Origin: a virus
Strand: one strand, 5' to 3'
DNA length: 25,840 nucleotides
IMG/VR virus record: IMGVR_UViG_3300022853_000080
Span: 1 to 25,840 of that record
The translations under genes were made by a program, and so were the position numbers. The notes beneath the pieces were generated by a model, which was given only the letters and a program-made list of their open reading frames with translations, searched no databases and was not told the DNA's origin. Shown piece after piece: positions 1,446 through 22,647 of this stretch (its first letter is position 1; every line of letters begins with the position of its first letter).

Positions 1446-1639
1446 CCTTTCTTGACTAACTCTATTTCGTATCCGTAGACTTTAAGTAGCTTCTCTACGG
1501 ACGCGACTTGTGGTATCTGGTTCCCGCTTTCCCACCGCTGGATAGACGCATGGTGGAGGTCCGACAGTAGCGCGGCGCGATTTTGGCTCAGCCCGGACTC
1601 TTCCCGGAGCGTGACCAGTTCTTTAGCGAGCCAGTGCAT
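1442..1639 (-). CDS. Small XRE-type HTH protein B
   Basis: This 65-residue protein is a compact XRE-type DNA-binding protein. The HTH is LREESGLSQNRAALLSDLHH followed by ASIQRWESGNQIPQ, with the W-E-S-G pattern typical of the helix 3-4 turn in this family. The C-terminus is VEKLLKVYGYEIELVKKG. I chose the ATG at 1639, which overlaps the last 17 nt of the polymerase gene, because GGGAGGA sits 5 nt upstream; an earlier in-frame start at 1699 lies wholly inside the polymerase frame. The stop overlaps the GTG of the next gene. The protein is probably made with the polymerase and may autoregulate the operon; this is inference. Confidence 0.8.
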   Translation of the reverse strand: MHWLAKELVTLREESGLSQNRAALLSDLHHASIQRWESGNQIPQVASVEKLLKVYGYEIELVKKG

Positions 1640-3638
1640 GGAAGTCCTCCCACGAATGTTTAGCGTCGCCCCAGTTTTTCCCAAACTCTGAGTCAACAAT
1701 TATAGGCACCGACAGCGGCACCGCCTCAATCATAATTTCTTCTGCCATTTTGTACTCCTTTTCTTCTGTTACAGATAGATCAATTTCATCGTGCATTTGT
1801 AGCATCATCCAAAGGCCTTGCTTGTGCATCTCTACCATGGCCTTCTTTGTCTGGTCTGCGGCGCTGCCTTGTATTAGGCGGTTCAGCGCCTTGTGTGTAA
1901 ACGCTCGTTTAAGCTTCTTCCAGCGCTTGTCTGTTTGGCCCCTAGCCTGTGCCGCCTCTAGTGGCAAGGGCCTGTCTGTGCGCCCCCATTGCGGCTCATA
2001 TAGGTCAAAGCGGCACCGCCTGTTGAGTATGGTCTTAATAAATCCACGCTTTCCAGCAAGGTTGCTGGTCGTGTTCATCAGGCCCTTCATGTAGGGTAGG
2101 CGGTCGTGGAACTGGTCCAGTATCGACTTGCCTTCTGGCCCTGCAATTTCATAGCATGGGAAGGTCGTAGACTTTTCATCGGAGTGTTGCCACTTGTCAT
2201 CCATCTTTACCATCCACGCCGTAGGTAGTCCTAGATCATGGCATAGCTTGGCCTCGCCCATACCGTAGGGAAGTCCTAGGTTAATCGGCTTGGCTTGCTT
2301 GCGCCCGATATTACATATGTCGGCCACCATTTGGTGATAGTCAGTGTGCGGGTCACGCCGGAACTGTTCCACAGCTTCTGCGGCTCCCGTCTGCTTCGTA
2401 AGGAACGCATAGTGTAGTGTGAGGCGCGGCTCCTGCGACGAGTAATCCTGTGCTGACCAAATGGAGCCCTCTTCCGGTAAGAACATACCCCGAACAATAG
2501 GCGCAAGGAACTCATCACGCCCCGAGTTCTGCTGCAGGTTTGGGTTAGACGCCGACAGGCGTCCAGACACTGTTCCACCATCGTCACTTTTCATAGGGTG
2601 CAGCTCACAGTGGATGCGTCCATCGTGGGCGTGATTGCCGATCTGCCCATCAATAAAGGTGTTCACTGTTTTACCAAGCTTACGAAGCTGACGAACTGTG
2701 CGGGGCATTTCGTGACTGTGACCCTCTAGGAACTCCTTGGTAAAGCTTGGGTTGCCTATGTCGGTGTGTGGGTGAGGGATGTCCAGCTTCTTAAACGCCT
2801 TGGCTACCGAACCAGGGGACCATACATCCATTGTAATCCCCCATTTGGATTTGAGGTTCTTGATTAGATCCTTCTCTAACCCTTGTATCTGGACTCGCGC
2901 CTGTTCCGCTTTACTGTAGTCAATGCGAATGCCCCGCTTGCGCATCTCTACCAGTACCGGGAGCATCTCCATCTCTAGGTGGTACAGGTCCATCAGGTCT
3001 TGGCTGGCGAGTATCTCCTGTTCGTAAAGATACAAGTCCATCGTTTGGATAACATCACCCTCTGCGTATGGTCCTACGTGGCGCGGAGGCATTCTCCACA
3101 TGTTCTTCTTCAGTTCTTTCTGGGTTTTAAAGCCCCAGACCGCGCCCGCTTTTTTAAGATGCTCCTCGTCCTTACCACCGCCAAGCCAGTCTTTTGACAG
3201 GTTGTCCAGTGAGTAGGACATGCGGTTCTCATCTATTAGGGCGGCACCGATTTGGGTATCGTGCAGTTGACCACGGCACACCGTAGCGCCCCACCGCCAC
3301 ATCCAACCGAGGTCATACATTCCGTTGTGGAAGACCTTTGGTATGGACGAGCGCATTATCTCATCTACGTAGCGCCGCACTAGGTCGTCATCCAAATTGC
3401 TGCCCTCTTGATGGCCCACGGGCAGGTAGAACGCGTCTGTGCGGTCGCCGTGACGCAGCCCAATAGCCACCCCGGCCAAGTGGCCACCACCCCATGGCCA
3501 CCCCGGTCCTCGGTCTGTGAGATTGGGGTCGTTGGTCTCTGTGTCAATGGCGAGAACACTCGCGTTCTGCCACTCGGGCAGTATCTCGGGTGGACGCCAC
3601 GGGCTGTCTACATCAAATAGGGGTAACTGTTGGCTCAC
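1623..3638 (-). CDS. polA: Family A DNA polymerase with proofreading domain (Leu762 type)
   Basis: This 671-residue replicative polymerase has both expected domains. The 3'-5' exonuclease shows DTET at 32-35, FHNGMYDLGWM with N105 and D109, and YAEGD with D195. The polymerase shows motif A (QDYSSQEPRL, metal-binding D398), motif B (RKQAKPINLGLPYG, 446-459) and motif C (MHDE, D617). SGRLSASNPNLQQ (358-370) is the usual template-contact block. The residue equivalent to E. coli Phe762 is Leu454. There is no 5'-3' exonuclease domain and no DnaJ-like insert such as reported for HMO-2011. The start is GTG, overlapping the TGA of the upstream HTH gene as GTGA. The polymerase would have to accept any modified thymidine triphosphate made by the upstream cassette. 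Confidence 0.97.
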   Translation of the reverse strand: MSQQLPLFDVDSPWRPPEILPEWQNASVLAIDTETNDPNLTDRGPGWPWGGGHLAGVAIGLRHGDRTDAFYLPVGHQEGSNLDDDLVRRYVDEIMRSSIPKVFHNGMYDLGWMWRWGATVCRGQLHDTQIGAALIDENRMSYSLDNLSKDWLGGGKDEEHLKKAGAVWGFKTQKELKKNMWRMPPRHVGPYAEGDVIQTMDLYLYEQEILASQDLMDLYHLEMEMLPVLVEMRKRGIRIDYSKAEQARVQIQGLEKDLIKNLKSKWGITMDVWSPGSVAKAFKKLDIPHPHTDIGNPSFTKEFLEGHSHEMPRTVRQLRKLGKTVNTFIDGQIGNHAHDGRIHCELHPMKSDDGGTVSGRLSASNPNLQQNSGRDEFLAPIVRGMFLPEEGSIWSAQDYSSQEPRLTLHYAFLTKQTGAAEAVEQFRRDPHTDYHQMVADICNIGRKQAKPINLGLPYGMGEAKLCHDLGLPTAWMVKMDDKWQHSDEKSTTFPCYEIAGPEGKSILDQFHDRLPYMKGLMNTTSNLAGKRGFIKTILNRRCRFDLYEPQWGRTDRPLPLEAAQARGQTDKRWKKLKRAFTHKALNRLIQGSAADQTKKAMVEMHKQGLWMMLQMHDEIDLSVTEEKEYKMAEEIMIEAVPLSVPIIVDSEFGKNWGDAKHSWEDFHALAR

Positions 3639-3838
3639 TTAGATTTCCTCCGCAAAGTTACTTCATAGCCCATTGTTTCGGCCCAGTCTATAAACTGATT
3701 AAGCCTTGGGTCTTTGTGCCTGTACCAGCGGTCTACGCTACTGTACGCGTAGCCGGAGGCTGTTGCGATGTCCAGCTTACGCAGACGCGCGATACGGGCG
3801 GTCTTTTGCAACACCGCTATCATTTGTTTAGCGGTCAT
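3635..3838 (-). CDS. Small HTH-like protein C
   Basis: This 67-residue basic protein starts MTAKQMIAVLQKTARIARLR. It has an HTH-like core, LDIATASGYAYSSVDRWYRH, where a small-residue turn precedes a candidate recognition helix. The ending MGYEVTLRRKSK matches the GYE-x-x-L endings of HTH proteins A and B. I prefer ATG 3838, which has GGAAAGG 4 nt upstream, over ATG 3868, which has no good site. The start overlaps the zinc-ribbon gene by 11 nt and the stop overlaps the polymerase GTG, so its translation is coupled to polymerase synthesis. It probably binds DNA, but the assignment is weaker than for A and B. Confidence 0.65.
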   Translation of the reverse strand: MTAKQMIAVLQKTARIARLRKLDIATASGYAYSSVDRWYRHKDPRLNQFIDWAETMGYEVTLRRKSK

Positions 3839-4022
3839 TGAGCCTTTCCGTATTATCCAACGGGCCAAGGTCTTCTAAGTCATCAGGGTCCATGATCTTA
3901 GAATTTGAGCTGACTCCTTCTATGTTAACTGTCGCGTGATTAACGTGTTGCGGCTCTTCGCATCCAGGGCAGACAATAACGTCATCCTCTAATTCTTCGT
4001 AACATGCAGTGCAGCTTTTCAT
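3828..4022 (-). CDS. Small zinc-ribbon protein
   Basis: A 64-residue acidic protein whose first 21 residues form a zinc ribbon: CTAC at 4-7 and CPGC at 18-21, two CxxC knuckles separated by ten residues. The remainder is low-complexity and acidic (IMDPDDLEDLGPLDN) and probably disordered. Such proteins often act as nucleic-acid or protein adaptors; no specific role can be read. Its ATG overlaps the DUF3310 stop as ATGA and its end overlaps HTH protein C by 11 nt, placing it in the nucleotide-metabolism/polymerase part of the operon. Confidence 0.75.
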   Translation of the reverse strand: MKSCTACYEELEDDVIVCPGCEEPQHVNHATVNIEGVSSNSKIMDPDDLEDLGPLDNTERLNDR

Positions 4023-4270
4023 TTTATGATCCCTTCAGAAATGAGTTCACGGTACTTTTGCAGGTAGTGGATAGCTTTGTCGATATCTTCGATACCGTTC
4101 TTCTCACGCCATCGGTCAATGTATTTGGTTGCGGCTCCCTGAAAGTAGTCGTAACCTCTCCGGGCAGCGAAGTCCCAGTGTTGAATTTCGTACCCGCTGG
4201 TACGATAGTGGACACCTCCGACTTGCAGGTCATTTGCATTCGGGACATTAGCTTGCTCGTCACTTGCCAT
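4019..4270 (-). CDS. DUF3310 protein (T7 gp1.7-like nucleotide kinase family)
   Basis: This 83-residue protein carries the whole DUF3310 signature. It begins at VGGVHYRTSGYEIQHWDF and continues with YDYFQGAATKYIDRW and DIDKAIHYLQKYREL. Phage members have been annotated as nucleotide kinases because the related T7 gp1.7 has a (d)TMP/GMP kinase activity; this short version may lack catalysis. The ATG at 4270 has AAGGAGAG 6-7 nt upstream, the strongest ribosome-binding site in this part of the operon. The gene lies almost entirely inside the 3' part of the HD gene in another frame. Since DUF3310 is conserved throughout, this frame is certainly the real one here. Placement next to ThyA-like and HD proteins fits a role in dNTP supply. 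Confidence 0.9.
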   Translation of the reverse strand: MASDEQANVPNANDLQVGGVHYRTSGYEIQHWDFAARRGYDYFQGAATKYIDRWREKNGIEDIDKAIHYLQKYRELISEGIIK

Positions 4271-4752
4271 TCTTTGCTCTCCTTGTTTGTGATTAATTTA
4301 TTCAGGTGATCGTAGCCGTTATTGAACCACTTGCGCGCGGCCTTGTTTCCTAGGTTTACTTCTTCTTCGCACCAGAGCATAAGCTCCAGCATATCGGCAA
4401 TCTTTAACCTATACGTCTCCACAGTCCCTAGACTTGGCATGTAGTCCTCTTCTTCCTGCATCTCGCAGATATCCAGCACCGTCTTTATCGCAGGGTATTT
4501 TTGCTTTGCTGTGAAGGGTGTATCACCTAACACACCCTCCGCAACATCGTGGTACAGCGCGGCCTGTATGAGACTAAGCGACCGGGTATTAGGCCAAAGT
4601 TCTAGGATAACTGAGGCCACTCCCCAAGAGTGATCAGCTACGCTTTGGCCGCGTATCGTTGTCACTGTATGCCACCGTTGGACGTTGCCTCCGGTTCGCC
4701 TTGCGCTCAAGTCTTCTAACAAGCCACTCGTGACAGGCTTTCTTCCAGTCAT
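4024..4752 (-). CDS. HD-domain phosphohydrolase (YfbR-like 5'-nucleotidase)
   Basis: Residues 20-160 form an HD-domain phosphohydrolase of the YfbR/dCMP-phosphatase-like type. Metal ligands are visible: H28 or H41 (QRWHTV, ADHSWGVA), H68-D69 (ALYHDVAEG) and D120 (KIADMLEL). Such enzymes dephosphorylate deoxynucleoside monophosphates. In modified-DNA phages they may remove an unwanted canonical nucleotide. The ATG at 4752 has AAGGA upstream but overlaps the ThyA-like gene by 119 nt. Residues 162-242 overprint the DUF3310 gene; that tail is Ser/Thr-rich and matches no HD family I know. The functional protein may therefore effectively end near residue 170, with the tail resulting from loss of a stop codon or an assembly indel. 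Confidence 0.8.
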   Translation of the reverse strand: MTGRKPVTSGLLEDLSARRTGGNVQRWHTVTTIRGQSVADHSWGVASVILELWPNTRSLSLIQAALYHDVAEGVLGDTPFTAKQKYPAIKTVLDICEMQEEEDYMPSLGTVETYRLKIADMLELMLWCEEEVNLGNKAARKWFNNGYDHLNKLITNKESKEWQVTSKLMSRMQMTCKSEVSTIVPAGTKFNTGTSLPGEVTTTFREPQPNTLTDGVRRTVSKISTKLSTTCKSTVNSFLKGS

Positions 4753-5659
4753 TACTTTCTATCCTTTCTACGTGCTTAATAGCACCTGTTAAGTTTCCAC
4801 CTTTAAATAGCTCCCACGCCTGGACCATAGGTACGGCGATGCCACACAAGAACGGTTCTGTGAGGCTTACATCGTACGGGTTGTTCATAAAGGCCCATAG
4901 CTCCGGCATGATACGCGCCCTGTCCGCAAATAGGTAACTGGCCGTTACCTCTCTCATTTGGTACGGGTCCACTGGTCCTGGGTCCGGTATTTCCAATGCG
5001 TTGAACACCTTTGTATAGGCGTGATAATCGTTGCTCACTTGGTAGTAGATCCCCACGGGCACCCCAAGCATATACGCGACATACTCCTGAAGGATACTCA
5101 TGTGGACTACATTGGCACCATAGGCACCCCAGATTATATCATTAGACCTGTTGTACACGGTCATATCCAAGCTTCCTAGCCGCATACGGAAGACAACCTG
5201 CATGTTACAAGGGAAATCTTTTCCTTCGCCACTATCTACGCGAGGGTCCCACATACCAAGGACGGCGCGGCGCGTGTCGGGATCTGTTCGTAGAAGAGCG
5301 ATAACTTGGTCAATCTGGTCTCGCTGGAAATGACTGCGCCATCTGTAGCCGTAGGCTCCGTGGAAGGTTTTACCATCGTCACTGAACTGGCCAATGCTGC
5401 CATTGTACCTCTCCAGCCACTCCACATCGTTACGACCAGCAAGCATCCACAAGCTTTCTAGATAGTGGAAGAAAGGGTTAGCATCGCGGCTTGCATTAAA
5501 CAGGACGCGCTCCCTTGGCCGCATATACGCTGTTGTTACAGGGTACGGTAGTGTGAGAACCTGCCCCGCTCTGCTGTTAGAGAACACGCCGTCGCTCCTC
5601 AACTTGTTCGTACCTACACAATAGGCCTCGTTGACATTCCGTGCTGTTATTACTCGCAT
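4634..5659 (-). CDS. ThyA-fold enzyme, probable dUMP hydroxymethylase
   Basis: This 341-residue protein has the thymidylate synthase fold: phosphate-binding TDPDTRRAVLGMWDP (R130/R131), catalytic Cys151 in DFPCNMQ, and NRSNDIIWGAYGANVVHMS (170-188). Asn183 corresponds to the uracil-selecting Asn of ThyA, so the substrate is probably dUMP rather than dCMP. Several features differ from true synthases as I recall E. coli ThyA. The double-Trp block TIWDEW reads SIGQFS (88-93). The H-x-Y that binds the sugar reads YQV. The catalytic Cys is followed by Asn, not His. The folate-closing C-terminal peptide is replaced by a basic tail. These losses fit an enzyme that adds water to the methylene intermediate, giving 5-hydroxymethyl-dUMP. 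An ordinary thymidylate synthase remains possible. It overlaps the glycosyltransferase gene by 10 nt. Confidence 0.85.
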   Translation of the reverse strand: MRVITARNVNEAYCVGTNKLRSDGVFSNSRAGQVLTLPYPVTTAYMRPRERVLFNASRDANPFFHYLESLWMLAGRNDVEWLERYNGSIGQFSDDGKTFHGAYGYRWRSHFQRDQIDQVIALLRTDPDTRRAVLGMWDPRVDSGEGKDFPCNMQVVFRMRLGSLDMTVYNRSNDIIWGAYGANVVHMSILQEYVAYMLGVPVGIYYQVSNDYHAYTKVFNALEIPDPGPVDPYQMREVTASYLFADRARIMPELWAFMNNPYDVSLTEPFLCGIAVPMVQAWELFKGGNLTGAIKHVERIESNDWKKACHEWLVRRLERKANRRQRPTVAYSDNDTRPKRS

Positions 5660-6423
5660 GATGATTTGTACGCCTTTTTCCAGGAGATAACTACGTCAGT
5701 ACGGACGCCGCCGCCCCAGCTTGTTTTCGTTTCTTTTTGCACGACCTTGACAAAGCCTGGATGCAGTTCTGCCAGCTCGTTACTGCATCGCGACATCATC
5801 TCTTGGTCACGGTAGGTACTGCAGCCCCCGGCAACGTTGCTCCCCGCCTGATTATGCGCGGCCCAGTAGCCGATTGAATTCGGCATACCCTTGCGCAAGA
5901 ACTGGAGTGTTACATCAAAGTCTTGCTTTGTGTCAATACGGTCAAATCGTATGCCTTCTTTATGAAAAGCATCCACGTCGTAGGCCAGCAACCGCATCAT
6001 CCGACCAACTTCTTTACGACCCTCGGCGACTGTGTTGTTTCCTTCACGGGCGCTGATACCTGCGTGAGCGTAGTCATCCAGTTGGAGCTTCAGCCACTGG
6101 AATACATCCTTCACGTCTTCAGGGGTGGCTTTGTGGAGTTTGGTTGTGTCATCCCGACGAACCGCAAAGGTAAGGTCATCATCCATCATTACGATCTTAT
6201 CCATACCCTGTTCTTTGGCATAGTCCATGATCCATTGTCGGGTAGGGCTTAGACGCTTTATTTCCCGTGGTAGAGGGACACACATCTCTGGAAATCTGCG
6301 CGAGTAACTAGCGTATTCCTGCTCCTGCACAACGAGAATGGTGTCTGCTTTTAACGAGTCAGGCAACTGTGCCAAAGTCGTTTGTTTATCGGGTCGCCCC
6401 AAGGTGTGTATGAAAAGTTTCAT
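5650..6423 (-). CDS. TET-associated-type DNA glycosyltransferase (TAGT family)
   Basis: This 257-residue protein has the GT-A-like layout of the TET/JBP-associated glycosyltransferases, the family also related to the GREB1 C-terminus. It starts MKLFIHTLGRPDKQTT with the first beta strand and nucleotide-sugar loop. It continues with LSPTRQWIMDYAKEQG and the metal-binding triad IVMMDDDLTF (DDD 81-83), then HAGISAREGNN (120-130) and the acceptor-side TKQDFDVTLQFLRKG (165-179). The family is predicted to glycosylate hydroxymethylated bases in DNA. I start it at ATG 6423, which overlaps the stop of the membrane-protein gene as ATGA; an upstream extension to 6573 is just that gene in another frame. 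Its position between a hypermodification-family protein and the ThyA-like enzyme supports a DNA-base substrate. No TET/JBP gene is nearby. Confidence 0.8.
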   Translation of the reverse strand: MKLFIHTLGRPDKQTTLAQLPDSLKADTILVVQEQEYASYSRRFPEMCVPLPREIKRLSPTRQWIMDYAKEQGMDKIVMMDDDLTFAVRRDDTTKLHKATPEDVKDVFQWLKLQLDDYAHAGISAREGNNTVAEGRKEVGRMMRLLAYDVDAFHKEGIRFDRIDTKQDFDVTLQFLRKGMPNSIGYWAAHNQAGSNVAGGCSTYRDQEMMSRCSNELAELHPGFVKVVQKETKTSWGGGVRTDVVISWKKAYKSSCE

Positions 6424-6620
6424 AGCCAACCATACCCGAACCAGATTGAGACGCCGTGTAGTATCCCAAGAGGGAAGAACGCTAATCCTACGATAAGGAG
6501 TGCTATTGCGCTCCCGGTGTACGCTGCCGCAGATATACAGAACACGAGGTGTGTCCCCCACGCTAGAATACATCCCACGATAAAGACCATTCCGGCCAGT
6601 CCTGCAAATGTGTCACTCAT
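6420..6620 (-). CDS. Small two-TM membrane protein in modification cassette
   Basis: A 66-residue hydrophobic protein with two predicted membrane helices, about residues 7-33 (FAGLAGMVFIVGCILAWGTH onward) and 36-57 (SAIALLIVGLAFFPLGIL). The loop is short and there are almost no charges, so it should be an inner-membrane hairpin. I do not recognise a family. Its ATG (6620) overlaps the stop of the hypermodification gene as ATGA, and its TGA overlaps the glycosyltransferase start in the same way, so it is clearly translated within the cassette. Possible roles include membrane anchoring, superinfection exclusion or lysis control; none can be read from the sequence. Confidence 0.75.
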   Translation of the reverse strand: MSDTFAGLAGMVFIVGCILAWGTHLVFCISAAAYTGSAIALLIVGLAFFPLGILHGVSIWFGYGWL

Positions 6621-7498
6621 GTTTTTCTTCCTTTCGGTTTATACTTGCTGCGAGGCTTGCCTTGGCCGTGGACAACGCGCTCGTATTTGTCGAACTCACA
6701 TAATTGGAATTGGATATCGTGTAAGTCCAGTAAGATAAAGTCCGGTGGCCAGTAATTAAATCGTTCCTCGTACAGTTCCAACAACATCATCAGGTATACG
6801 TCTTCTCGGAGCTTGGTGTCAAACTCGTAGCCGAACACCCTGTTCAAGCCACGACGCGCGCCCGGACCTACCGGGCACCATGTATTAAGGTCGTCACAGA
6901 CAGGGAACGCTGTTGTGTTCAGTGCGTCCTGAAGGACCTCCTTAGTCATAAAGCCACTGCCCCCGAAACCTTTTAGAGATCTCATGCGCGCGGCGACCGC
7001 TTGCCAGCTCCGAGTCTCGTCCATAATAGAAACGAGGGAGTCCACCACCTTAGAAAAGGGAAGTAGAAAATGGTCTACGACAACCTCTTCTTTGGGGAGC
7101 TTGAGGCCTTGGTTGGTGATAACGTAGGCCCCGGTAAAAACGCGCTCCTTGGCCTTCATCCTGTCACGAGCGAGTACCTTAAGGCTAATGCGATGGCTTG
7201 GCTTTGCAAAACTGTGAAGCTTTTGCCATCCTGCGGCTGCAGCGAACTCGAGGGTTCCAAAGTACCGGAAGAAGGCGCAGTTGAAGAGCACTTCCGCCCG
7301 GTTATTCTCACGCGCATTTGGTCCAGTAAAATAATCTCGCATCCATTTAGTCGTGCGGTCATGTTCCCTCTTTACGTTTGTGAACTTGTACTTCTGCAGG
7401 ATAGGATCATCCGTCCAGGGCCACTTGCCACCAGTTTCTTTGCGGAAGCGAATAGCCTCACGCTTTATCATGAATTCGTAGAACTCTTTCGCTCTCAT
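6617..7498 (-). CDS. DNA base hypermodification protein (5-hmdU DNA kinase helical-domain family)
   Basis: This 293-residue protein matches the all-helical family predicted to act on hydroxymethyl-dU in DNA: the HMUDK helical domain and the related alpha-glutamyl/putrescinyl-thymine pyrophosphorylase and amino-acid:DNA transferase groups. The signature block WPWTDDPILQKYKFTNV with REHDR spans 26-48. A helix-hairpin-helix-like LKGFGGSGFMTKEV is at 175-188. PVGPGARRGLNRVFG is at 209-223. The closing DLHDIQFQLCEFDKYERV is at 258-275. No Walker A motif is present, so it is not itself a P-loop kinase. Members work with a base hydroxymethylase to decorate thymine. ATG 7498 has AAAGG 7 nt upstream and overlaps the stop of a 17-codon leader. 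The exact reaction cannot be assigned between kinase partner and transferase types. Confidence 0.8.
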   Translation of the reverse strand: MRAKEFYEFMIKREAIRFRKETGGKWPWTDDPILQKYKFTNVKREHDRTTKWMRDYFTGPNARENNRAEVLFNCAFFRYFGTLEFAAAAGWQKLHSFAKPSHRISLKVLARDRMKAKERVFTGAYVITNQGLKLPKEEVVVDHFLLPFSKVVDSLVSIMDETRSWQAVAARMRSLKGFGGSGFMTKEVLQDALNTTAFPVCDDLNTWCPVGPGARRGLNRVFGYEFDTKLREDVYLMMLLELYEERFNYWPPDFILLDLHDIQFQLCEFDKYERVVHGQGKPRSKYKPKGRKT

Positions 7499-7548
7499 AT
7501 CAACGCCTTTACAATATAAATGAGGATCTCTGTGATAACTTCGCTCAC
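7495..7548 (-). CDS. 17-residue hydrophobic leader peptide
   Basis: GTG at 7548 is preceded by a strong AAAGGAG site 7 nt upstream and opens a 17-codon frame, VSEVITEILIYIVKALI (first residue Met in the protein). Its TGA overlaps the ATG of the hypermodification gene as ATGA. The peptide would be a single short amphipathic or membrane helix. It is the first translated frame after the TATAAT promoter at 7586-7581. It may be a real micro-protein or simply a translational-coupling leader; the strong ribosome-binding site is the main evidence. Confidence 0.45.
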   Translation of the reverse strand: MSEVITEILIYIVKALI

Positions 7549-7573: not shown

Positions 7574-7588
7574 TGCGTTTATTATAGC
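7574..7588 (-). promoter_or_regulatory. -10 element of the modification/polymerase operon promoter
   Basis: A perfect TATAAT (7586-7581, minus strand) lies in the gene-free gap just downstream of a terminator and about 33 nt before the leader-peptide GTG. The surrounding 15-nt element GCTATAATAAACGCA recurs with one mismatch at 730-716. No good -35 is seen at 16-18 nt, so an extended, activated or phage-specific promoter is possible. Confidence 0.5.
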
Positions 7589-7614: not shown

Positions 7615-7650
7615 AGTTAAAATAAAAAAGGGCCACCCGAAGGTGACCCC
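7615..7650 (-). terminator. Rho-independent terminator with UUCG tetraloop
   Basis: On the minus strand, GGGTCACC (7649-7642), loop TTCG, then GGTGGCCC (7637-7630) form an 8-bp stem with one G-U pair. It is followed at once by TTTTTTATTTT (7629-7619). This is a textbook intrinsic terminator 25 nt after the stop at 7675. It ends the replication transcript coming from the right and insulates the promoter at 7586. Confidence 0.9.
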
Positions 7651-7674
7651 TTTCCCTGACACCTGAGATCGCGC

Positions 7675-9728: not shown

Positions 9729-11258
9729 CTATAGTACGTCGCCGTCCATTGCGGGTAAGTCAAATGCTTCTGTCTGCTGGTCAGGTAGGCCCACGTACCA
9801 AACGTTGACTCCCTTGCCCTTTATCTTGAAGAAGTGGCTGTTCGCCTTAATGTTCTCACCCTGTAGCCGCGAGATCATTTGCGAACGATTGTAGTGCTTG
9901 AAGCCATTCCGTACGAGGAACTCCTCAAAGTCTCCAATACGGAAATAGACTCTGTCGGTGGTTGGGGTGGTGGGATCAGGTCCCATCCAAGGCCTGCCAA
10001 GAAGTAGTTCCTCTTTGGACTGAGCCGCCAGTCTGCTATCAGTGGCGTAAAAATGTAACAGTTCTGCGAATTGGTCACTGATACTGGCCTCCCTGGGTTT
10101 GTCTAACACCTCGCATTTGTCTAGTAACGCTTGCACTATGTTTTGCCATTGGCGTTCATTGACGCGGGGCGGCATATAGTTAATGTACTCCATACAGGCT
10201 TTTTGGAAGCGGGGCTGTTGTTGGAGCTCCTCGGTACTGAGCTCAAGGCGTATGCCGTTGACGTCTAGGAACCAAACGGGTTGGTCAGTAGGAAGCTTAC
10301 TAAGGCCCCGCATGACAGGCATAGCGCCACCACCAACACCAAAGGCCCTAGTCCGGCAAAGCGGGGCGTTACAGAAATTGCAAATAGGCTGGTCGTTGCA
10401 TCGGTAGTTGTAGTCTTTTTTGCCAATCTGTTTCTGGATTGTTTGGACTTCTTTAGACTCCAGCGGCGGGTCCATGTATTTCGTGTTGAATTCTTCAAGT
10501 TTGTCCTCCCATTTGTCAGGGAACGCTTTACGAACGTATACGCCCAATGCGAACAGTCCGTTGTTCCGTGTACCCTGTGGAAAGCCTTGGTCTATGAGTG
10601 CCTGTAAGCACGGAGGGCCATCATCAAGGTCCGTGGTTTTCTGAACTTCAATATCTTCTAGGTCTTCTGCGGACATACGCCCGTTTTCTGCAACAGATAA
10701 GAAGCTGGCCAAAAGCATCGCCTTGCCGTCTTTGTCTAGGCAATAGCGTGTTCCTTTGTCGCCTCCGTAGTATGGCATATTAAGCCAGTTTCCCACGTCC
10801 CCTTTCTCAACTAGGACTTGGGCTTGCTTTGGAAATATTTCACTTCTACCGTAACCAAGACTTGCGGCGATCTCGTTGAGTTTACGCTGGACATCCCGTG
10901 CGGGGAGTGCTTCCTTAAAGAACGCCACGAGGTGACAACCCCCAGACTTACTGCGAAGAGGAAATAGAGGTAAACCCCTGCTATAGACTCGGACGGCGAA
11001 GGACTTTAAATCTAGCTGATAGTCGTCAACGTCAATAGCACCCCAATAGCACAGATTGTCGCTTCTAATAGGAATAATTCCGATATTTTCTTTGCCATTT
11101 ACATGCCCTGCCCACTGTTCCGGTGTGACTGGTTTTCGGACTGTGCGGGCAACCCCCTTCCTCTTTCCGTTGGACTCTACTTCATCACTTATTTTATAAA
11201 TTCCGTGCGCTTCGTCCATTCCTTTGAATAAAGCCATTAGGCGATCGGATAAAGACAT
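9729..11258 (-). CDS. Archaeo-eukaryotic-type primase/primase-polymerase (TOTE-like)
   Basis: This 509-residue protein looks like an archaeo-eukaryotic-type (AEP) primase related to the TOTE/plasmid group, not a DnaG/TOPRIM enzyme. The catalytic metal site is WGAIDVDDY (D76 and D78). The nucleotide-binding block is RSKSGGCHLVAFF (H109). EIFPKQ and GNWLNMPYY follow near 140-164. A C-terminal Zn cluster follows, RCNDQPICNFCNAPLCRTRAFG (positions 286-307; C287, C293, C296, C301). Between them RNNGLFALGVYVRKAFPDKW resembles the PriCT helical module. It would make primers and may also extend or translesion-copy DNA. ATG 11258 has GGAGAAG upstream; an intrinsic terminator separates it from the gene upstream. 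Confidence 0.83.
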   Translation of the reverse strand: MSLSDRLMALFKGMDEAHGIYKISDEVESNGKRKGVARTVRKPVTPEQWAGHVNGKENIGIIPIRSDNLCYWGAIDVDDYQLDLKSFAVRVYSRGLPLFPLRSKSGGCHLVAFFKEALPARDVQRKLNEIAASLGYGRSEIFPKQAQVLVEKGDVGNWLNMPYYGGDKGTRYCLDKDGKAMLLASFLSVAENGRMSAEDLEDIEVQKTTDLDDGPPCLQALIDQGFPQGTRNNGLFALGVYVRKAFPDKWEDKLEEFNTKYMDPPLESKEVQTIQKQIGKKDYNYRCNDQPICNFCNAPLCRTRAFGVGGGAMPVMRGLSKLPTDQPVWFLDVNGIRLELSTEELQQQPRFQKACMEYINYMPPRVNERQWQNIVQALLDKCEVLDKPREASISDQFAELLHFYATDSRLAAQSKEELLLGRPWMGPDPTTPTTDRVYFRIGDFEEFLVRNGFKHYNRSQMISRLQGENIKANSHFFKIKGKGVNVWYVGLPDQQTEAFDLPAMDGDVL

Positions 11259-11309: not shown

Positions 11310-12098
11310 TTACATAACTTCAGGATTAGCCGCGACAGGTTCGTCGGGGTTAGTATGCTTCGCTTCTACTTCACCAGAATTAACCGACTTGGCAAACGCT
11401 TTTGCCATTCGGTACGCGTCGATGTCAGATACGACACCTTCCATAGAGACTGACCAGTTCGACCAGTTCCCTTCGTCGTTGCTCTCACCCACAGTTTTCA
11501 GTCGATACATACGACTGTAAGACGGTGCCGTTTTAGGACCCTGCTTTGTCTTGAGGACTTGCTGGCCCATTAAGCTATTCCATTTCTTAGAATGCTTAAG
11601 CTGTGTGCTGGACATTGAGATAACAGCCTGTTCAGCAAAGCCAGAAGCTACGTCATAGATAAGACCGTAGTGCTCAGCGGTAGGGGCTAGAATATTGCCC
11701 TGTGCCGTGCGCATCTTATTCTTCTCATCTGTTTCGTACGAAGGTAGCTCAGAACCGCGAGGGTACGAGTCAACAATACCACCCCCATCTTTACGGTCTT
11801 TCCACTCAATATGCTTGAAGTTGAATGCACACGGAATGAACACGAATCCTTCGTCCGCGTCCCAAAGTTGGCCAGTGACCGTATTGATGATCATACCCTC
11901 TTCGGCACCTTCGATGTAAGCCCCCTCACGCTTGGCAAGCTGCGGCGACATTTGCTGCAGAATACGCAAGAATGGGATTGCCATATCTTCGGTAGTTACG
12001 TTTTGAAGGCCATCTCCTGAGTCAGCCTCCATCTCTTCCATAAGTGCTGCTGGAAGTGTCTCTTCTTTTTTAGCTACGGCGTTTTTTGCCATGGTCAT
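11310..12098 (-). CDS. Candidate single-stranded DNA-binding protein
   Basis: This 262-residue soluble protein is of a type often annotated as ssDNA-binding in marine podoviruses; that is a recollection, not a search. It has an acidic, probably flexible N-terminus (ALMEEMEADSGDGLQN), then VTTEDMAIPFLRILQQMSPQ. The aromatic, beta-rich core runs through FVFIPCAFNFKHIEWKDR and NWSNWSVSMEGVV. The C-terminus is disordered and Pro/Ala-rich without the strongly acidic tail of T7 gp2.5. Its position between a coiled-coil protein and the primase, followed by a strong terminator that would favour high expression, fits an ssDNA-binding role. ATG 12098 overlaps the preceding TGA as ATGA. The alternative is an unrelated conserved replication accessory protein. 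Confidence 0.6.
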   Translation of the reverse strand: MTMAKNAVAKKEETLPAALMEEMEADSGDGLQNVTTEDMAIPFLRILQQMSPQLAKREGAYIEGAEEGMIINTVTGQLWDADEGFVFIPCAFNFKHIEWKDRKDGGGIVDSYPRGSELPSYETDEKNKMRTAQGNILAPTAEHYGLIYDVASGFAEQAVISMSSTQLKHSKKWNSLMGQQVLKTKQGPKTAPSYSRMYRLKTVGESNDEGNWSNWSVSMEGVVSDIDAYRMAKAFAKSVNSGEVEAKHTNPDEPVAANPEVM

Positions 12099-12661
12099 TT
12101 TCCTTTTGTGATTGTCGCTACTTGCCCGAGATAAGCTCCGAAGAGCTCCAGCGGCACGGGCTCAGCCGCTTCGACCTGCCTTCCGAGCCACGCCTTAAGC
12201 GTACCCGCATGGACAGATTGCTTGGTGTCAGGGGAATATCCGGCTTTGATGAGTGTTTCCAAGGCGGCTTCCGCTTTCTCCATTTCTTTCATACCGAAGT
12301 TAAGTACAACTTCGTTTTTGATGATGTCGTCGTGGCCGTGTTCAATAAGCCACGCGTAGGCTTCTTCTTTGTTGCTTTTAGGAATACTCGCCGAAACAAA
12401 CGGCTTTAACTGCACAACTGTACCGTCTGCAGAACTCCAAAGCCCTGTACCAATCGCGTTCATATGCTCCGGCACTGTTTTGGTCTTATGGAACTGCAGG
12501 TTTTCCTTGGCTTCCTTGAGGGCGTTGTCCAGCTGGATAACTGCGTCCTCCATCTCTATTTGCTTTTCAACCAGCGTTCCAAGGGACACGAGATCCGCGT
12601 CACTCGCTACGGTAACTTCCGCAAGGGCGTCTTCTTCCATTTCATCGAAAATATCAGTCAT
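12095..12661 (-). CDS. Conserved phage protein with N-terminal coiled coil
   Basis: This 188-residue acidic protein starts MTDIFDEMEEDALAEVTVAS. A helical segment (LVEKQIEMEDAVIQLDNAL to about 60) has heptad spacing and is likely a coiled coil. A beta-rich core follows (GLWSSADGTVVQLKPFVSAS), then YAWLIEHGHDDIIKNEVVL and the conserved-looking SVHAGTLKAWLGRQVE near the end. I recall similar proteins next to phage ssDNA-binding genes, without a known function. It overlaps its upstream neighbour by 8 nt and its stop overlaps the ssDNA-binding-like gene. A role as a replisome or recombination accessory protein is plausible but unproven. Confidence 0.7.
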   Translation of the reverse strand: MTDIFDEMEEDALAEVTVASDADLVSLGTLVEKQIEMEDAVIQLDNALKEAKENLQFHKTKTVPEHMNAIGTGLWSSADGTVVQLKPFVSASIPKSNKEEAYAWLIEHGHDDIIKNEVVLNFGMKEMEKAEAALETLIKAGYSPDTKQSVHAGTLKAWLGRQVEAAEPVPLELFGAYLGQVATITKGK

Positions 12662-19187: not shown

Positions 19188-20072
19188 TTATTTGTAAAGC
19201 TGATATGCGCCGACAAGACCAGATAACGCTCCAGCCCCTTGTCCAAATGGACTTGTAGAAAGTTGTGGGTTCACGGAAACACCGGACTGTGTTGTAGATG
19301 TTTCGTACGGAACGCCCTTGAGAACGCCTGTGGCAAAGTTCGTTTGGTCGTAAGGATGCTGGCGTTGCTCTTGGAAATCTCCGTAAGCTGTGTCCAGGCT
19401 CTGCTGACTAAGTTGCCGTTCTGAAGCACCGATTCGCTCCAAGGCGGCTGCGTCTTGTACTGCTAGGCCCTGTGCGGACGCTCCAAGCGTTGGCGCTAGT
19501 TGCGCCGTTTGCAGTGCGCGCGTCTGGTCTGCGTTAAAGGTTTGCTGCGCATTGTCATAGGCTTGTGCTTGGCCCTTGAGCTGTAAGTCAGATAGACCCA
19601 GTGCGCGGGAGCGTTCATTTTCTGCTTCCATAACCCCTTGCCGACCACCACCGAATCCTCCTGCGGATTGCGTAGCTTGGCCTTGGATATTGGCTTGTTG
19701 AACGTCCATGCCTCTATTGTACTCACGGGAGGCAATGTCCGTAACATTCTGCTGATATGGGTTCATGTATTGGGTCGCAGCATCATTACCCCAGTTTTGG
19801 GACGCTTGGTTCAGCGAAGTCTGCGCTTGGTCCATGTAGGGCTGATAAGCCCCTAGACTGTTTTCCAACATGCCTTGAGCCTGAGTCTCACGGTCTGTGA
19901 AACCCGCGATTCGCTGCTGGTCATATGTTTGATACGGCTGCGTGGCAAGGTTCTTGGCTTGTTCAAACAGTTCCTGACCACCTTGGGAGACCCATTGCGG
20001 AATATCTGTATTTGTTACCGTCTCAGTATACCCAGGAGTTGTGTCTACAGTTGGTTTACAAAGATCACCCAT
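19188..20072 (-). CDS. Gln/Ala-rich internal-virion-like protein
   Basis: A 294-residue protein starting MGDLCKPTVDTTPGYTETVT. Most of it is Gln/Ala-rich helix: QELFEQAKNLATQPYQTYDQ, then YQPYMDQAQTSLNQASQNW, then SREYNRGMDVQQANIQGQAT. A Gly-rich turn follows (SAGGFGGGRQGV) and the C-terminus is Gly-rich (GQGAGALSGLVGAYQLYK). This layout is familiar from marine podovirus structural proteins of the T7 gp14-like position, which form part of the ejected trans-envelope channel. Its start overlaps the GNAT gene by 8 nt. The function is inferred. Confidence 0.65.
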   Translation of the reverse strand: MGDLCKPTVDTTPGYTETVTNTDIPQWVSQGGQELFEQAKNLATQPYQTYDQQRIAGFTDRETQAQGMLENSLGAYQPYMDQAQTSLNQASQNWGNDAATQYMNPYQQNVTDIASREYNRGMDVQQANIQGQATQSAGGFGGGRQGVMEAENERSRALGLSDLQLKGQAQAYDNAQQTFNADQTRALQTAQLAPTLGASAQGLAVQDAAALERIGASERQLSQQSLDTAYGDFQEQRQHPYDQTNFATGVLKGVPYETSTTQSGVSVNPQLSTSPFGQGAGALSGLVGAYQLYK

Positions 20073-20508
20073 TTTGTTTTTCCTCGAACAATGTACCGTT
20101 TCTAACGAAGCCTAGCTTACCGTAAAACTTGTCCATGCGATCTACCGACTCACCTAAGATATGAGCTACTCTTACAGGTATATCCGCATCTTGACCAGCT
20201 TTGCGGAAGGCCTTGAGAAGCTTGAACGCTGCCGGAGACTTGCGGTGCTCTGCGCGAACATAAAACCAATGGTCGCCAAGGTGTTTGGCGTTGCTGTACC
20301 AGTCGGTCGCTACGCGCCCTCCAATGCTGCCCATCATTTCGCCTTCGTCAGTTTGTGCGATAAGCACCACCCCCGACGCGATGTTATCAACAACAGTATG
20401 TGTGACCTTTAACCAATCGGCAGAAGGAAGCTTTGCGCTTTCATGCATCGTGTGCAAAAGCACAACGACAGCACTTACATCAACCAAAGTTGCTGGACGG
20501 ACCTGCAT
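20065..20508 (-). CDS. GNAT-family acetyltransferase 1
   Basis: A 147-residue GNAT-fold protein. It has the expected order: strand 1 (MQVRPATLVDVSAVVVLLHT), a central strand with VVLIAQTDEGEMMGSIGG, the acetyl-CoA region DHWFYVRAEHRKSPAAFKLL (about 80-99, a degenerate R-x-x-G-x-G loop), and the C-terminal MDKFYGKLGFVRNGTLFEE typical of GNATs. It would transfer an acetyl group to an amine; the substrate is unknown. The start has an excellent TAGGAGG site 5 nt away. The gene lies between virion genes, suggesting late expression and perhaps acetylation of a virion protein. The changed P-loop leaves open a loss of activity. Confidence 0.75.
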   Translation of the reverse strand: MQVRPATLVDVSAVVVLLHTMHESAKLPSADWLKVTHTVVDNIASGVVLIAQTDEGEMMGSIGGRVATDWYSNAKHLGDHWFYVRAEHRKSPAAFKLLKAFRKAGQDADIPVRVAHILGESVDRMDKFYGKLGFVRNGTLFEEKQNG

Positions 20509-20833: not shown

Positions 20834-21269
20834 TGTCACTCTCCAAACTGTCTGTGTTTATCTTACCGAAAGAGTGGATAAAACTGGTCATGTTCTTTTC
20901 GCCAACCTTAAATCCACATCCTTTGAGCATCCGCTTCATTGGTTCTGAGGAGGTTACTTCGTACACTATGCCCTCCCCTTCGAATTTGGTGTGTGCGTCT
21001 TCCTTGAGAGCTTCAATAATCTTACGAAGGCCAATACCTTTTTCAGTGGTGTGCGCTTCGGGGTTAACCATAAGGAACGACATGATGCAAATTTTGACGC
21101 CCTCCGGAAAATAGACAAACCCTGCAGCGCATGGCTTTCCATTATGGAATGCGACCCTTCCGTGGGGCAAGATACTCTCTGGAATAGGATCCCAGTCATA
21201 CGCTTGGACCCATTCGCAGATGATCGAATAGTGTGCTCTGGGCGTGTACGCCTCTGTTCGGTAGCTCAA
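20820..21269 (-). CDS. GNAT-like acetyltransferase 2 with TTG start
   Basis: A 149-residue GNAT-like protein. Central strands read HGRVAFHNGKPCAAGFVYF and VKICIMSFLMVNPEAHTTEK, followed by the CoA-side helix GIGLRKIIEALKEDA and the late EPMKRMLKGCGFKVGEK, the usual GNAT ending. No ATG is available before the fold begins. TTG 21269 has GAGGAG about 10 nt upstream and gives a complete domain, so I accept it. That start lies inside the Hint-protein gene (74-nt overlap in another frame). The substrate is unknown. It is one of two GNAT-like genes bracketing the P/Q-rich protein. Confidence 0.65.
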   Translation of the reverse strand: MSYRTEAYTPRAHYSIICEWVQAYDWDPIPESILPHGRVAFHNGKPCAAGFVYFPEGVKICIMSFLMVNPEAHTTEKGIGLRKIIEALKEDAHTKFEGEGIVYEVTSSEPMKRMLKGCGFKVGEKNMTSFIHSFGKINTDSLESDNGPR

Positions 21270-22647
21270 TATAGAAAAGCTCCTCGTTCCGTTCGTGTGA
21301 CATATTCAGCACGGCAAGGCGGTCTGTGTCTGTCAGCTCCGAAGTGTTCGGGACTTCGTTTAGGTCTGCGCTGATAAAGCCGCTAGTGACCAGTGTGTAG
21401 TTTTCAGTGCAGATTGGGTAAACGACCACAGGAGAATCAATGGACACAGGGGTGCTCAGTGCAGAGTCGCGGACCCGAATCCAGATACCATGCTCAAACA
21501 CGGCATGGCCTCCTGAAACATAAACATCCTTGTATTCGAAGATCTCATCGGAGTAAGCCTCGCCACGGGTAATGACTGTACCGCCGATGAATACCCTGTC
21601 ACCAAGGCGAAGGTCTTCAACTGCTTTGGTTGTCCCGTCTTCCATTTCGATAGGTGTGCCCTGCATGTAGCAGAACATTGAGCCAATGGTGCCACCGATA
21701 AAGCCACCGATAGGTCCACCGAAGGAATAGCCGACGGCTGTGCCAACGCCAGAACCTGCCGCGCTTTTGGCTGCAGTCTTGAAATCCTGTCCCATAAGTA
21801 AGCCCAAGCCAAGGGAAACACCCCCGCCAAGAAGCCCTGACTGAAACCCCCCATACTGGAAGTTTGTCTTAAAGTCACCGCCGGACCACACAGGCGTTCC
21901 GGGTGCTGCAGAGATAGAAACCCCGCTTCCGCTTTGACCAGAAAGCACATTACCTCCTTCAGGAGTGGACGCGAGCTGGGTGTTACCTGTAAATGCTGAT
22001 GGTGGTGGTGGTGCGCTACTCTCACCCAATACGCTAGATGCGAAGTCACTGCCGCCAGAACCCAATAACTCCGACCGTGAGATACCTTGTGACAGGGGCG
22101 ACCCGCCGCCGTACAGGCCCTGAGTTTCACCTAGAATGGAATTAACTGCAGGGACATTGGCAGACAACGAACCTACGTTGGTAGTCCCTGAAGGACCGCC
22201 GGATAGGTAGGTGCCAAAGTCTGTGAGCGTATCTGGAATATCTGTGATAAAGCCTGAGGCGTTATCTAGCGCATCGCTACCAAAAGATACGATGTCATTG
22301 TACGTTGTTTCGCCACCACCCTTGAGACTATCCAAGAAACCCGGCTCAACACCTGTACTCTGCAATTCATCAAAGGCGTACTGGCCTGCGTTTTGTCCTA
22401 TCTCGTTTGCCAAGAAACTGGCCCCTGCGCCCGCTAATCCTAGCGCCATATTTGGCCCTGTCTGTGTGTACGGGTCGTCCAATAGGCGGCTCCCGCCCTG
22501 CGAAGTGAAGCCCTCATCCAATGTTACTTGGCGACCCGGTGTGTTTGTAAAGAAACGGTGGGACGGGGTGCCCCCCGCTTGGCCATAGGTAAGGATGTTG
22601 GTGGCGGGGGCTTGGTATGTAGGATCTTGCAGTGTGAGAATAGTCAT
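21196..22647 (-). CDS. Gly-rich virion protein with C-terminal Hint (intein/hedgehog-like) domain
   Basis: Residues 1-300 are Gly/Ser-rich, with tail- or ejection-protein character. A glycine zipper (GYSFGGPIGGFIGGTIGSMF, about 306-325) probably inserts in a membrane. Cys326 then opens a Hint domain: GTPIEMEDGTT, KAVEDLRLGDRVFIGG (341-356), the block-B-like VSGGHAVF with H381, and CTENYTLVTSGFISADL (413-429). In hedgehog and bacterial Hint proteins the first Cys performs an N-S acyl shift that cleaves the chain. There is no C-terminal His-Asn plus extein, so splicing is unlikely but cleavage at Cys326 is possible. About 50 further residues follow the domain. The gene starts at ATG 22647, sharing one base with the previous TAA. 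Confidence 0.8.
   Translation of the reverse strand: MTILTLQDPTYQAPATNILTYGQAGGTPSHRFFTNTPGRQVTLDEGFTSQGGSRLLDDPYTQTGPNMALGLAGAGASFLANEIGQNAGQYAFDELQSTGVEPGFLDSLKGGGETTYNDIVSFGSDALDNASGFITDIPDTLTDFGTYLSGGPSGTTNVGSLSANVPAVNSILGETQGLYGGGSPLSQGISRSELLGSGGSDFASSVLGESSAPPPPSAFTGNTQLASTPEGGNVLSGQSGSGVSISAAPGTPVWSGGDFKTNFQYGGFQSGLLGGGVSLGLGLLMGQDFKTAAKSAAGSGVGTAVGYSFGGPIGGFIGGTIGSMFCYMQGTPIEMEDGTTKAVEDLRLGDRVFIGGTVITRGEAYSDEIFEYKDVYVSGGHAVFEHGIWIRVRDSALSTPVSIDSPVVVYPICTENYTLVTSGFISADLNEVPNTSELTDTDRLAVLNMSHERNEELFYIELPNRGVHAQSTLFDHLRMGPSV

Follow-up and report, generated by a model that had tools for sequence, protein, structure and literature searches.

Which fate awaits a hydroxymethylated thymine precursor when a glycosyltransferase gene occupies the place in which related phages keep a kinase? 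The question is raised by a five-gene overlapping operon on the minus strand of a linear IMG/VR virus record (IMGVR_UViG_3300022853_000080), an incomplete genome fragment that was analysed over its whole 25,840 nt (hereafter the window). The operon encodes HMUDK_hel, a small membrane protein, a TAGT glycosyltransferase, a ThyA-like enzyme and an HD-domain protein (Table 1). An initial annotation of the same DNA had proposed five coupled genes acting in thymine modification, and comparisons by sequence, Pfam and PHROGs recovered all of them at that place and on that strand, joined by ATGA (HMUDK_hel/small membrane protein and small membrane protein/TAGT) or by other overlaps (10 nt for TAGT/ThyA, 119 nt for ThyA/HD), with strong matches to the families that it had named. 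Judged from their sequences, the family matches of the cassette lie far above chance. We consider that the locus is best read as the phage thymidine-hypermodification cassette in a form that uses a glycosyltransferase, and through which 5-hydroxymethyl-deoxyuridine (5hmdU) is probably made and glycosylated in DNA; the overall interpretation of the initial annotation is thereby supported.

The ThyA-like enzyme is 45% identical to gp58 of phage M6, and its nearest solved structures by sequence are CMP 5-hydroxymethylases (5jnh, 5b6d), with thymidylate synthases next. We aligned 159 cassette-locus sequences (including that of the window) with E. coli ThyA, SPO1 gp29 and ViI ThyA, and found (in E. 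coli numbering) that Leu143, which serves in hydride transfer, is replaced by Asp in 159/159 and that Trp80 is missing in all, with Cys146, Arg126, Arg166, Ser167, Asp169, Asn177, His207 and Tyr209 retained in 159/159. The ‘hydroxymethylase-like losses’ that had been claimed for this protein are thus real, and SPO1 gp29 (annotated as a dUMP hydroxymethylase) shows the identical residue pattern. The catalytic cysteine of the T4 dCMP hydroxymethylase (gp42) is Cys148. In that enzyme Asp145, which lies three residues before the catalytic cysteine and corresponds to Leu143, keeps in place the water from which the hydroxyl arises, and the preference for cytosine is due to Asp179 (PMC6841964). The window protein and all of its relatives carry Asn at this specificity position (179/177), on which ground a dCMP hydroxymethylase was rejected; the retention of Asn177, in place of an Asp179-type residue, points to dUMP as the substrate. 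By these features the enzyme would be a dUMP hydroxymethylase that forms 5-hydroxymethyl-dUMP. A plain thymidylate synthase was rejected on the active-site residues. Phages commonly carry ThyA-family genes, and the locus might be imagined as an ordinary thymidylate synthase next to a glycosyltransferase for a surface glycan or protein, with the DNA left unmodified. We regard this as extremely improbable, since no relative has kept the residues for hydride transfer (which largely refutes it), the linkage to a DNA-modification protein is tight (see below) and the TAGT family is held to act on DNA in T6-like phages.

The TAGT protein itself scores 93.9 bits against PF20691 (curated cut-off 27.5), and its D81, D82 and D83 are invariant among 48 sequences. 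The AlphaFold2 model derived from 48 window and IMG/VR sequences (predicted local distance difference test, pLDDT, 95.5) has the GT-A glycosyltransferase fold according to Foldseek and VIA-align 2 (best match GalNAc-T2, Z 15.3, root-mean-square deviation (rmsd) 4.1, 224 residues), so that the fold and the metal-binding DXD-type motif are both present. In T6-like phages a TAGT is held likely to add a second glucose to glucosyl-hydroxymethylcytosine (glucosyl-hmC) in DNA (PMC13390438), and it is by this role that we link the family to DNA-borne groups.

Further evidence comes from the company that these genes keep. Loci were collected from IMG/VR by alignment-based scans (a search with the window HMUDK_hel sequence alone gave no matches there), and the 80 TAGT and 80 HMUDK_hel loci, numbered here with the prefix L, are the best 80 of each by similarity to the window, taken from contigs that are partly redundant and fragmentary, in which absence from a fragment is not absence from the phage. 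By our own profiles, HMUDK_hel and ThyA both lie within 3 kb at 71 of the 80 TAGT loci, and a kinase or ADDT at none (0/80). The HMUDK_hel loci are partnered by TAGT (28 of 80), by GT4-like proteins of clusters c1 and c3 (40), by an unassigned gene, c6 (7), or by kinase/ADDT (2); a c1 member matches PF00534 at 8e-8, c3 is placed with the GT4-like proteins solely by profile similarity to c1 (E 4e-6), neither c3 nor c6 has a Pfam or PHROG match, and the GT4-type protein that was searched (L101) has no relative among isolated phages. A maximum-likelihood tree was built from 83 dereplicated HMUDK_hel proteins and labelled by partner (TAGT, GT4, c6, kinase/ADDT). The labels require 15 changes on it; at least 8 for TAGT and 4 for kinase/ADDT are imposed by branches with good support. 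The nearest relative of the window HMUDK_hel (L094, 61% identical) has a kinase-family protein (phrog_800, 1e-17) in the TAGT slot. From the label changes and from this slot we conclude that partners have been exchanged repeatedly, HMUDK_hel and ThyA staying in place. This exchange is the strongest argument for a general part of HMUDK_hel in 5hmdU modification, a role that we infer from it. Nor is the gene set unique to the window: many environmental phages have it, and the isolated phage LuckyBarnes has its core.

Several of these loci merit separate mention. At L094 (10001-13737) the kinase-family protein is accompanied by a small methyltransferase-like protein, both standing instead of TAGT, a swap of the decorating enzyme between near neighbours. 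Radical S-adenosylmethionine (SAM)/SPASM genes occur at 24/80 HMUDK_hel loci and FkbM-type methyltransferases at 7/80; at L095:5578-7178, L014:1382-2353 and L104:10930-12650 such genes lie between HMUDK_hel and the glycosyltransferase, which suggests that the sugar or base is tailored further. In L099 (10001-15237) the row reads HMUDK_hel, TAGT, a weak APH-like kinase, a HAD-like protein, a weak MobA-like nucleotidyltransferase, Nmad5 and ThyA, possibly a dedicated supply of activated sugar, and in L117 (10889-12650) an NAD-dependent epimerase/GDP-mannose-dehydratase-like gene directly before TAGT gives a hint of the sugar used. No fused HMUDK_hel-glycosyltransferase open reading frame (ORF) was found, and ViI gene 062c, considered as a further HMUDK_hel, gave no match to the profile and was dropped from the tree.

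The match of HMUDK_hel to PF18723 is full-length (136.6 bits, cut-off 25, residues 4-279), which agrees with the 5-hmdU-DNA-kinase helical family named in the initial annotation; the protein itself is no kinase, being ruled out as one by the all-helical, DNA-glycosylase-like fold of its predicted model, which is not a P-loop kinase fold. This model (AlphaFold2, 76 sequences, pLDDT 95.6) drew no significant match in Foldseek (best E 1.0), and its kinship surfaced solely in the second alignment, VIA-align 2, with DUF2419 queuosine-salvage enzymes (Z 10.5, rmsd 5.2, 220 residues), HhH DNA glycosylases (3-methyladenine and 8-oxoguanine, Z ~10) and gp46 of phage PaMx11 (PUGT, 8z2m), a glycinyltransferase acting on 5-phosphomethyl-deoxyuridine (5-PmdU) (Z 9.9, rmsd 4.5, 225 residues). 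A Z of 10 for an all-helical protein is by itself not decisive; the leading matches are all nucleobase or nucleoside enzymes, mostly DNA-acting, and the models of HMUDK_hel and TAGT both fall within the folds expected of such modification enzymes; placement in unrelated folds, which the initial annotation had named as grounds for its own refutation, did not occur. Invariant or nearly so are R13, N41, R44, D47, R78, K136, D191, D203, W207, R216, R220, E268, K271 and R274.

These observations bear on two other roles for HMUDK_hel. The main rival to our reading makes it a gp46-like catalyst that attaches a group to the 5-methylene carbon or swaps one there, and TAGT would then decorate this product in place of plain hydroxymethyluracil. 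The structural match to gp46 and the many near-invariant residues (arguably beyond the needs of a passive binder) speak for such a catalyst, as do the radical SAM genes at 24/80 loci. We nevertheless hold it to be unlikely: gp46 is named for a phosphorylated substrate, yet the TAGT loci are without a kinase, and HMUDK_hel and ADDT, present together as separate genes in M6 and Pam3, are unlikely to share one job. Another possibility is that HMUDK_hel is a base-excision enzyme which removes hmU or T from unglycosylated DNA, as a self/non-self check or as an attack on host DNA. True HhH DNA glycosylases are among its best fold matches, and several hmU glycosylases do not accept base J as a substrate (PMC6449724); as HMUDK_hel also accompanies kinase-type cassettes, and as base excision would be suicidal while hmdU is being incorporated, we judge this role very improbable. 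A further, tentative view (to which we give somewhat less than an even chance) is that HMUDK_hel is misnamed and is the constant DNA-handling core of 5hmdU modification, joined with a hydroxymethylase and a neighbouring transferase (TAGT, GT4-like glycosyltransferase or 5-hmdU kinase, often plus radical SAM or FkbM methyltransferase), in which case glycosyl-5hmdU and its derivatives would prevail over amino-acid thymidines among the sampled environmental phages.

The thymidine hypermodifications of phages M6, ViI and phi W-14 are thought to pass through phosphorylated 5hmdU. The 5-hmdU kinase (PF18748, phrog_800) was not found in the window, an incomplete contig in which the slot beside HMUDK_hel is sequenced; ADDT (the amino acid:DNA transferase, PF18724) was found neither in the window, a fragment, nor in LuckyBarnes, and this gene can sit far off. 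No TET/JBP thymine hydroxylase appeared among the window proteins scanned with Pfam (part of the ORFs of this incomplete contig). Kinase and ADDT are likewise absent from the complete LuckyBarnes and MW202897 genomes and from those TAGT contigs that were searched over their full length (up to 80 kb); their profiles do match in M6, ViI, Ab18 and TM26. Run over whole IMG/VR records, phrog_800 gave clear matches only in L094 and L170 (both already labelled kinase); two further matches, in GT4-type records, were weak (E 3e-5 and 8e-4). Of the isolates, M6, ViI, Ab18 and TM26 gave a match to phrog_800, and LuckyBarnes and MW202897 gave none. This profile also finds matches in every one of the 14 control genomes, as is usual with P-loop proteins, so that its silence is more informative than its weak matches. 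ADDT was seen within the IMG/VR set in L170 only, under the family cut-off. Because HMUDK_hel is not a kinase and the contig holds neither kinase nor amino-acid transferase, glycosylation appears to replace phosphorylation rather than to follow it. As an aside, members of the 5-hmdU DNA kinase family go under the name ‘terminase small subunit’, probably by misannotation, both in PHROGs (phrog_800) and in the phage records for M6 gp54, MW2 gp14 and ViI 061c (noted at L003:3686-4249, which is M6 gp54, L004:3511-4077 and L176:38203-38865).

A kinase and an amino-acid transferase could also lie beyond the sequenced part, so that TAGT would glycosylate an amino-acid-type hypermodified base. The window contig is incomplete, ADDT is remote from the ThyA locus in ViI and Montesquieu, and L099 combines TAGT with Nmad5, all of which would fit such an arrangement. 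However, the kinase adjoins HMUDK_hel in M6, TM26, Ab18, Pam3 and Sonora, that slot is fully sequenced here, and neither gene occurs in the complete LuckyBarnes genome or in the long TAGT contigs, which leaves this explanation quite improbable. The window phage could have a kinase in its unsequenced part, but, given complete relatives without one, this is unlikely.

On the assumption that 5hmdU is glycosylated directly, we infer the following route. The ThyA-like enzyme would turn dUMP into 5-hydroxymethyl-dUMP; the HD nucleotidase would clear competing dTMP or dUMP, host or phage kinases taking hmdUMP to hmdUTP; the phage DNA polymerase I would put hmdU in for some or all of the T; the HhH-fold HMUDK_hel would bind DNA and present hmdU at chosen sites (a step that, on its own, we believe about as readily as we doubt it); and TAGT would move a sugar from a nucleotide-sugar to the hydroxymethyl group, giving a base-J-like glycosyl-5hmdU that could block host nucleases. 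Several points weigh against this route. The contig is a 25.8 kb fragment, outside which a kinase or other enzymes could lie, and no enzyme for the step from hmdUMP to hmdUTP was identified within the window. The protein gp46, with which HMUDK_hel has its fold in common, is a catalyst, and HMUDK_hel too may act as an enzyme and not as a helper that binds DNA; furthermore, MW202897 has TAGT and ThyA with no detectable HMUDK_hel, which is thus not always needed. The T6-type TAGT acts on a sugar that is already present on the base, not on a hydroxymethyl group. What the computation shows is the set of genes, their residue signatures and folds, how they recur and how partners are swapped; the reactions, the sugar, the substrate of the nucleotidase and the part played by HMUDK_hel are deduced.

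The remaining genes and signals of the locus are listed in Table 1. The H, HD and D motifs are visible in the HD protein, the frame of which (to 4024) overlaps the DUF3310 gene out of phase by ~247 nt; as the HD domain stops near residue 175, the last ~70 residues may fall outside it, and the overlap is either a genuine long one or the product of a contig indel. The small membrane protein stands next to HMUDK_hel at a few loci only (L100, L112, L113, L118/L119), and because of this limited recurrence we propose no role for it. The cassette had been described as led by a promoter and insulated by a terminator. The terminator is indeed there (GGTCACC-TTCG-GGTGGCC followed by a T tract, graded strong); the promoter could not be upheld, the perfect TATAAT having no -35 near it and the promoter scan calling no sigma-70 site there. 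A putative leader ORF (MSEVITEILIYIVKALI) is ATGA-coupled to the start of HMUDK_hel, and its GTG explains why the initial annotation ended the cassette at 7548. The family A DNA polymerase has the same position as in M6 and Pam3.

Table 1. Features of the cassette and its surroundings in the window
Feature	Position	Strand	Evidence
HMUDK_hel (aGPT-Pplase1), 293 aa, HhH DNA-glycosylase-like fold	6617..7498	-	PF18723 1.4e-39; phrog_2396 3.2e-46
Small hydrophobic protein, 66 aa, probably membrane	6420..6620	-	phrog_7319 1.7e-9
TAGT glycosyltransferase, 257 aa, DDD motif at residues 81-83	5650..6423	-	PF20691 1.7e-26; phrog_842 1.1e-53
ThyA-family dUMP hydroxymethylase (predicted), 341 aa	4634..5659	-	Thymidylat_synt 3.8e-22; phrog_5131 1.1e-116
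HD-domain YfbR-like 5'-deoxynucleotidase, conserved residues ~12-175	4024..4752	-	PF12917 1.7e-12; phrog_6047 1.3e-38
DUF3310 protein, next after HD	4019..4270	-	PF11753 2.4e-5; phrog_5839 4e-21
Family A DNA polymerase, downstream of cassette	1623..3638	-	phrog_17 3.3e-113; synteny with M6, Pam3
Leader ORF, 17 codons, GTG start at 7548, MSEVITEILIYIVKALI	7495..7548	-	sequence; putative
Possible -10 element TATAAT	7581..7586	-	perfect TATAAT in sequence
Intrinsic terminator, upstream of cassette	7624..7655	-	14-pair stem, TTCG loop, T tract

Elsewhere in the window we observed three small helix-turn-helix (HTH)-like proteins of 66-85 aa with similar C-termini (496-696, 1442-1699 and 3635-3868), a TOTE-type archaeo-eukaryotic primase together with homologues (by Pfam) of gp33/gp34 of cyanophage Pam3 (9729-11258 and 11310-12661), which itself bears a kinase-type cassette, a weak Hint (intein-like) match (PF13403, 0.0043) at residues 326-354 of a structural-region protein (21196-22647), and a GNAT acetyltransferase gene amid structural genes (20065-20508).

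According to a paper of 2019, no phage genome had ever been reported to contain glycosylated hydroxymethyluracil. If the reading given here is true, phages have, in addition, a separate branch in which 5hmdU receives a sugar to give a base-J-like derivative, and the isolated LuckyBarnes, which carries the hydroxymethylase, HMUDK_hel and two TAGTs, makes the claim testable. Moreover, the reading offers candidate enzymes for the sugar-tagging of 5hmdU in DNA, and it puts forward a definite hypothesis on what HMUDK_hel does, a widespread protein that owes its annotation only to its association with a kinase. TAGT and aGPT-Pplase were reportedly first described in computational work of 2013, and work of 2022 is said to have noted combinatorial hypermodification genes in viral metagenomes; an earlier mention of this gene combination, e.g. 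in the original TAGT/aGPT-Pplase prediction or in the papers on the M6 and ViI enzymes, is possible.

Among known systems, the thymidine-hypermodification cassette of M6 and Pam3 has HMUDK_hel, dUMP hydroxymethylase, HD nucleotidase and DNA polymerase I in the identical order (HMUDK_hel-X-ThyA-HD-PolA, also in MW2), with kinase-type genes in place of TAGT; the window, by contrast, is without 5-hmdU kinase, ADDT, pyridoxal phosphate (PLP) enzyme, radical SAM and Nmad5, and has TAGT and the small membrane protein instead. The full order in M6 is ADDT, PLP enzyme, radical SAM, 5-hmdU kinase, HMUDK_hel, Nmad5, ThyA, HD and DNA polymerase, most of which is common to Bordetella phage MW2, Pseudanabaena phage Pam3, Rhizobium phage RHph_TM26 and Stenotrophomonas phage Sonora, and M6 DNA bears 5-(2-aminoethyl)deoxyuridine, which is believed to derive from 5hmdU by way of a phosphorylated intermediate (PMC6449724). 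LuckyBarnes, an isolated lytic Brevibacterium phage with a complete genome, resembles the window in that HMUDK_hel, two TAGTs and a ThyA-family enzyme adjoin one another (gp38-gp41) with no kinase/ADDT in the genome, and differs in its reversed order, the second TAGT and the lack of an adjacent HD gene. Caudoviricetes sp. MW202897 (Manatee Spring) shares the order TAGT-ThyA-HD (TAGT 42.5%, ThyA 47.6% identical), although HMUDK_hel was not found in it. Sugar-bearing thymidine analogues are present in the DNA of phages SP-15 and YerA41 as well, but SP-15 glycosylates dihydroxypentyluracil, and the YerA41 group is of ~1 kDa and unresolved structure. In T4 and T6, hydroxymethylation at the nucleotide level by a ThyA-fold enzyme is likewise followed by sugar transfer on DNA (with TAGT in T6-like phages), whereas the base is cytosine, the specificity position is Asp, no HMUDK_hel partner has been described and the T6-type TAGT adds the second sugar. 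In base J of kinetoplastids thymine is hydroxylated within DNA by JBP1/2 and a different glycosyltransferase is used, whereas here dUMP would receive the hydroxymethyl group; the product predicted for the window phage, glycosylated 5hmdU, is nonetheless the one that the two would have in common.

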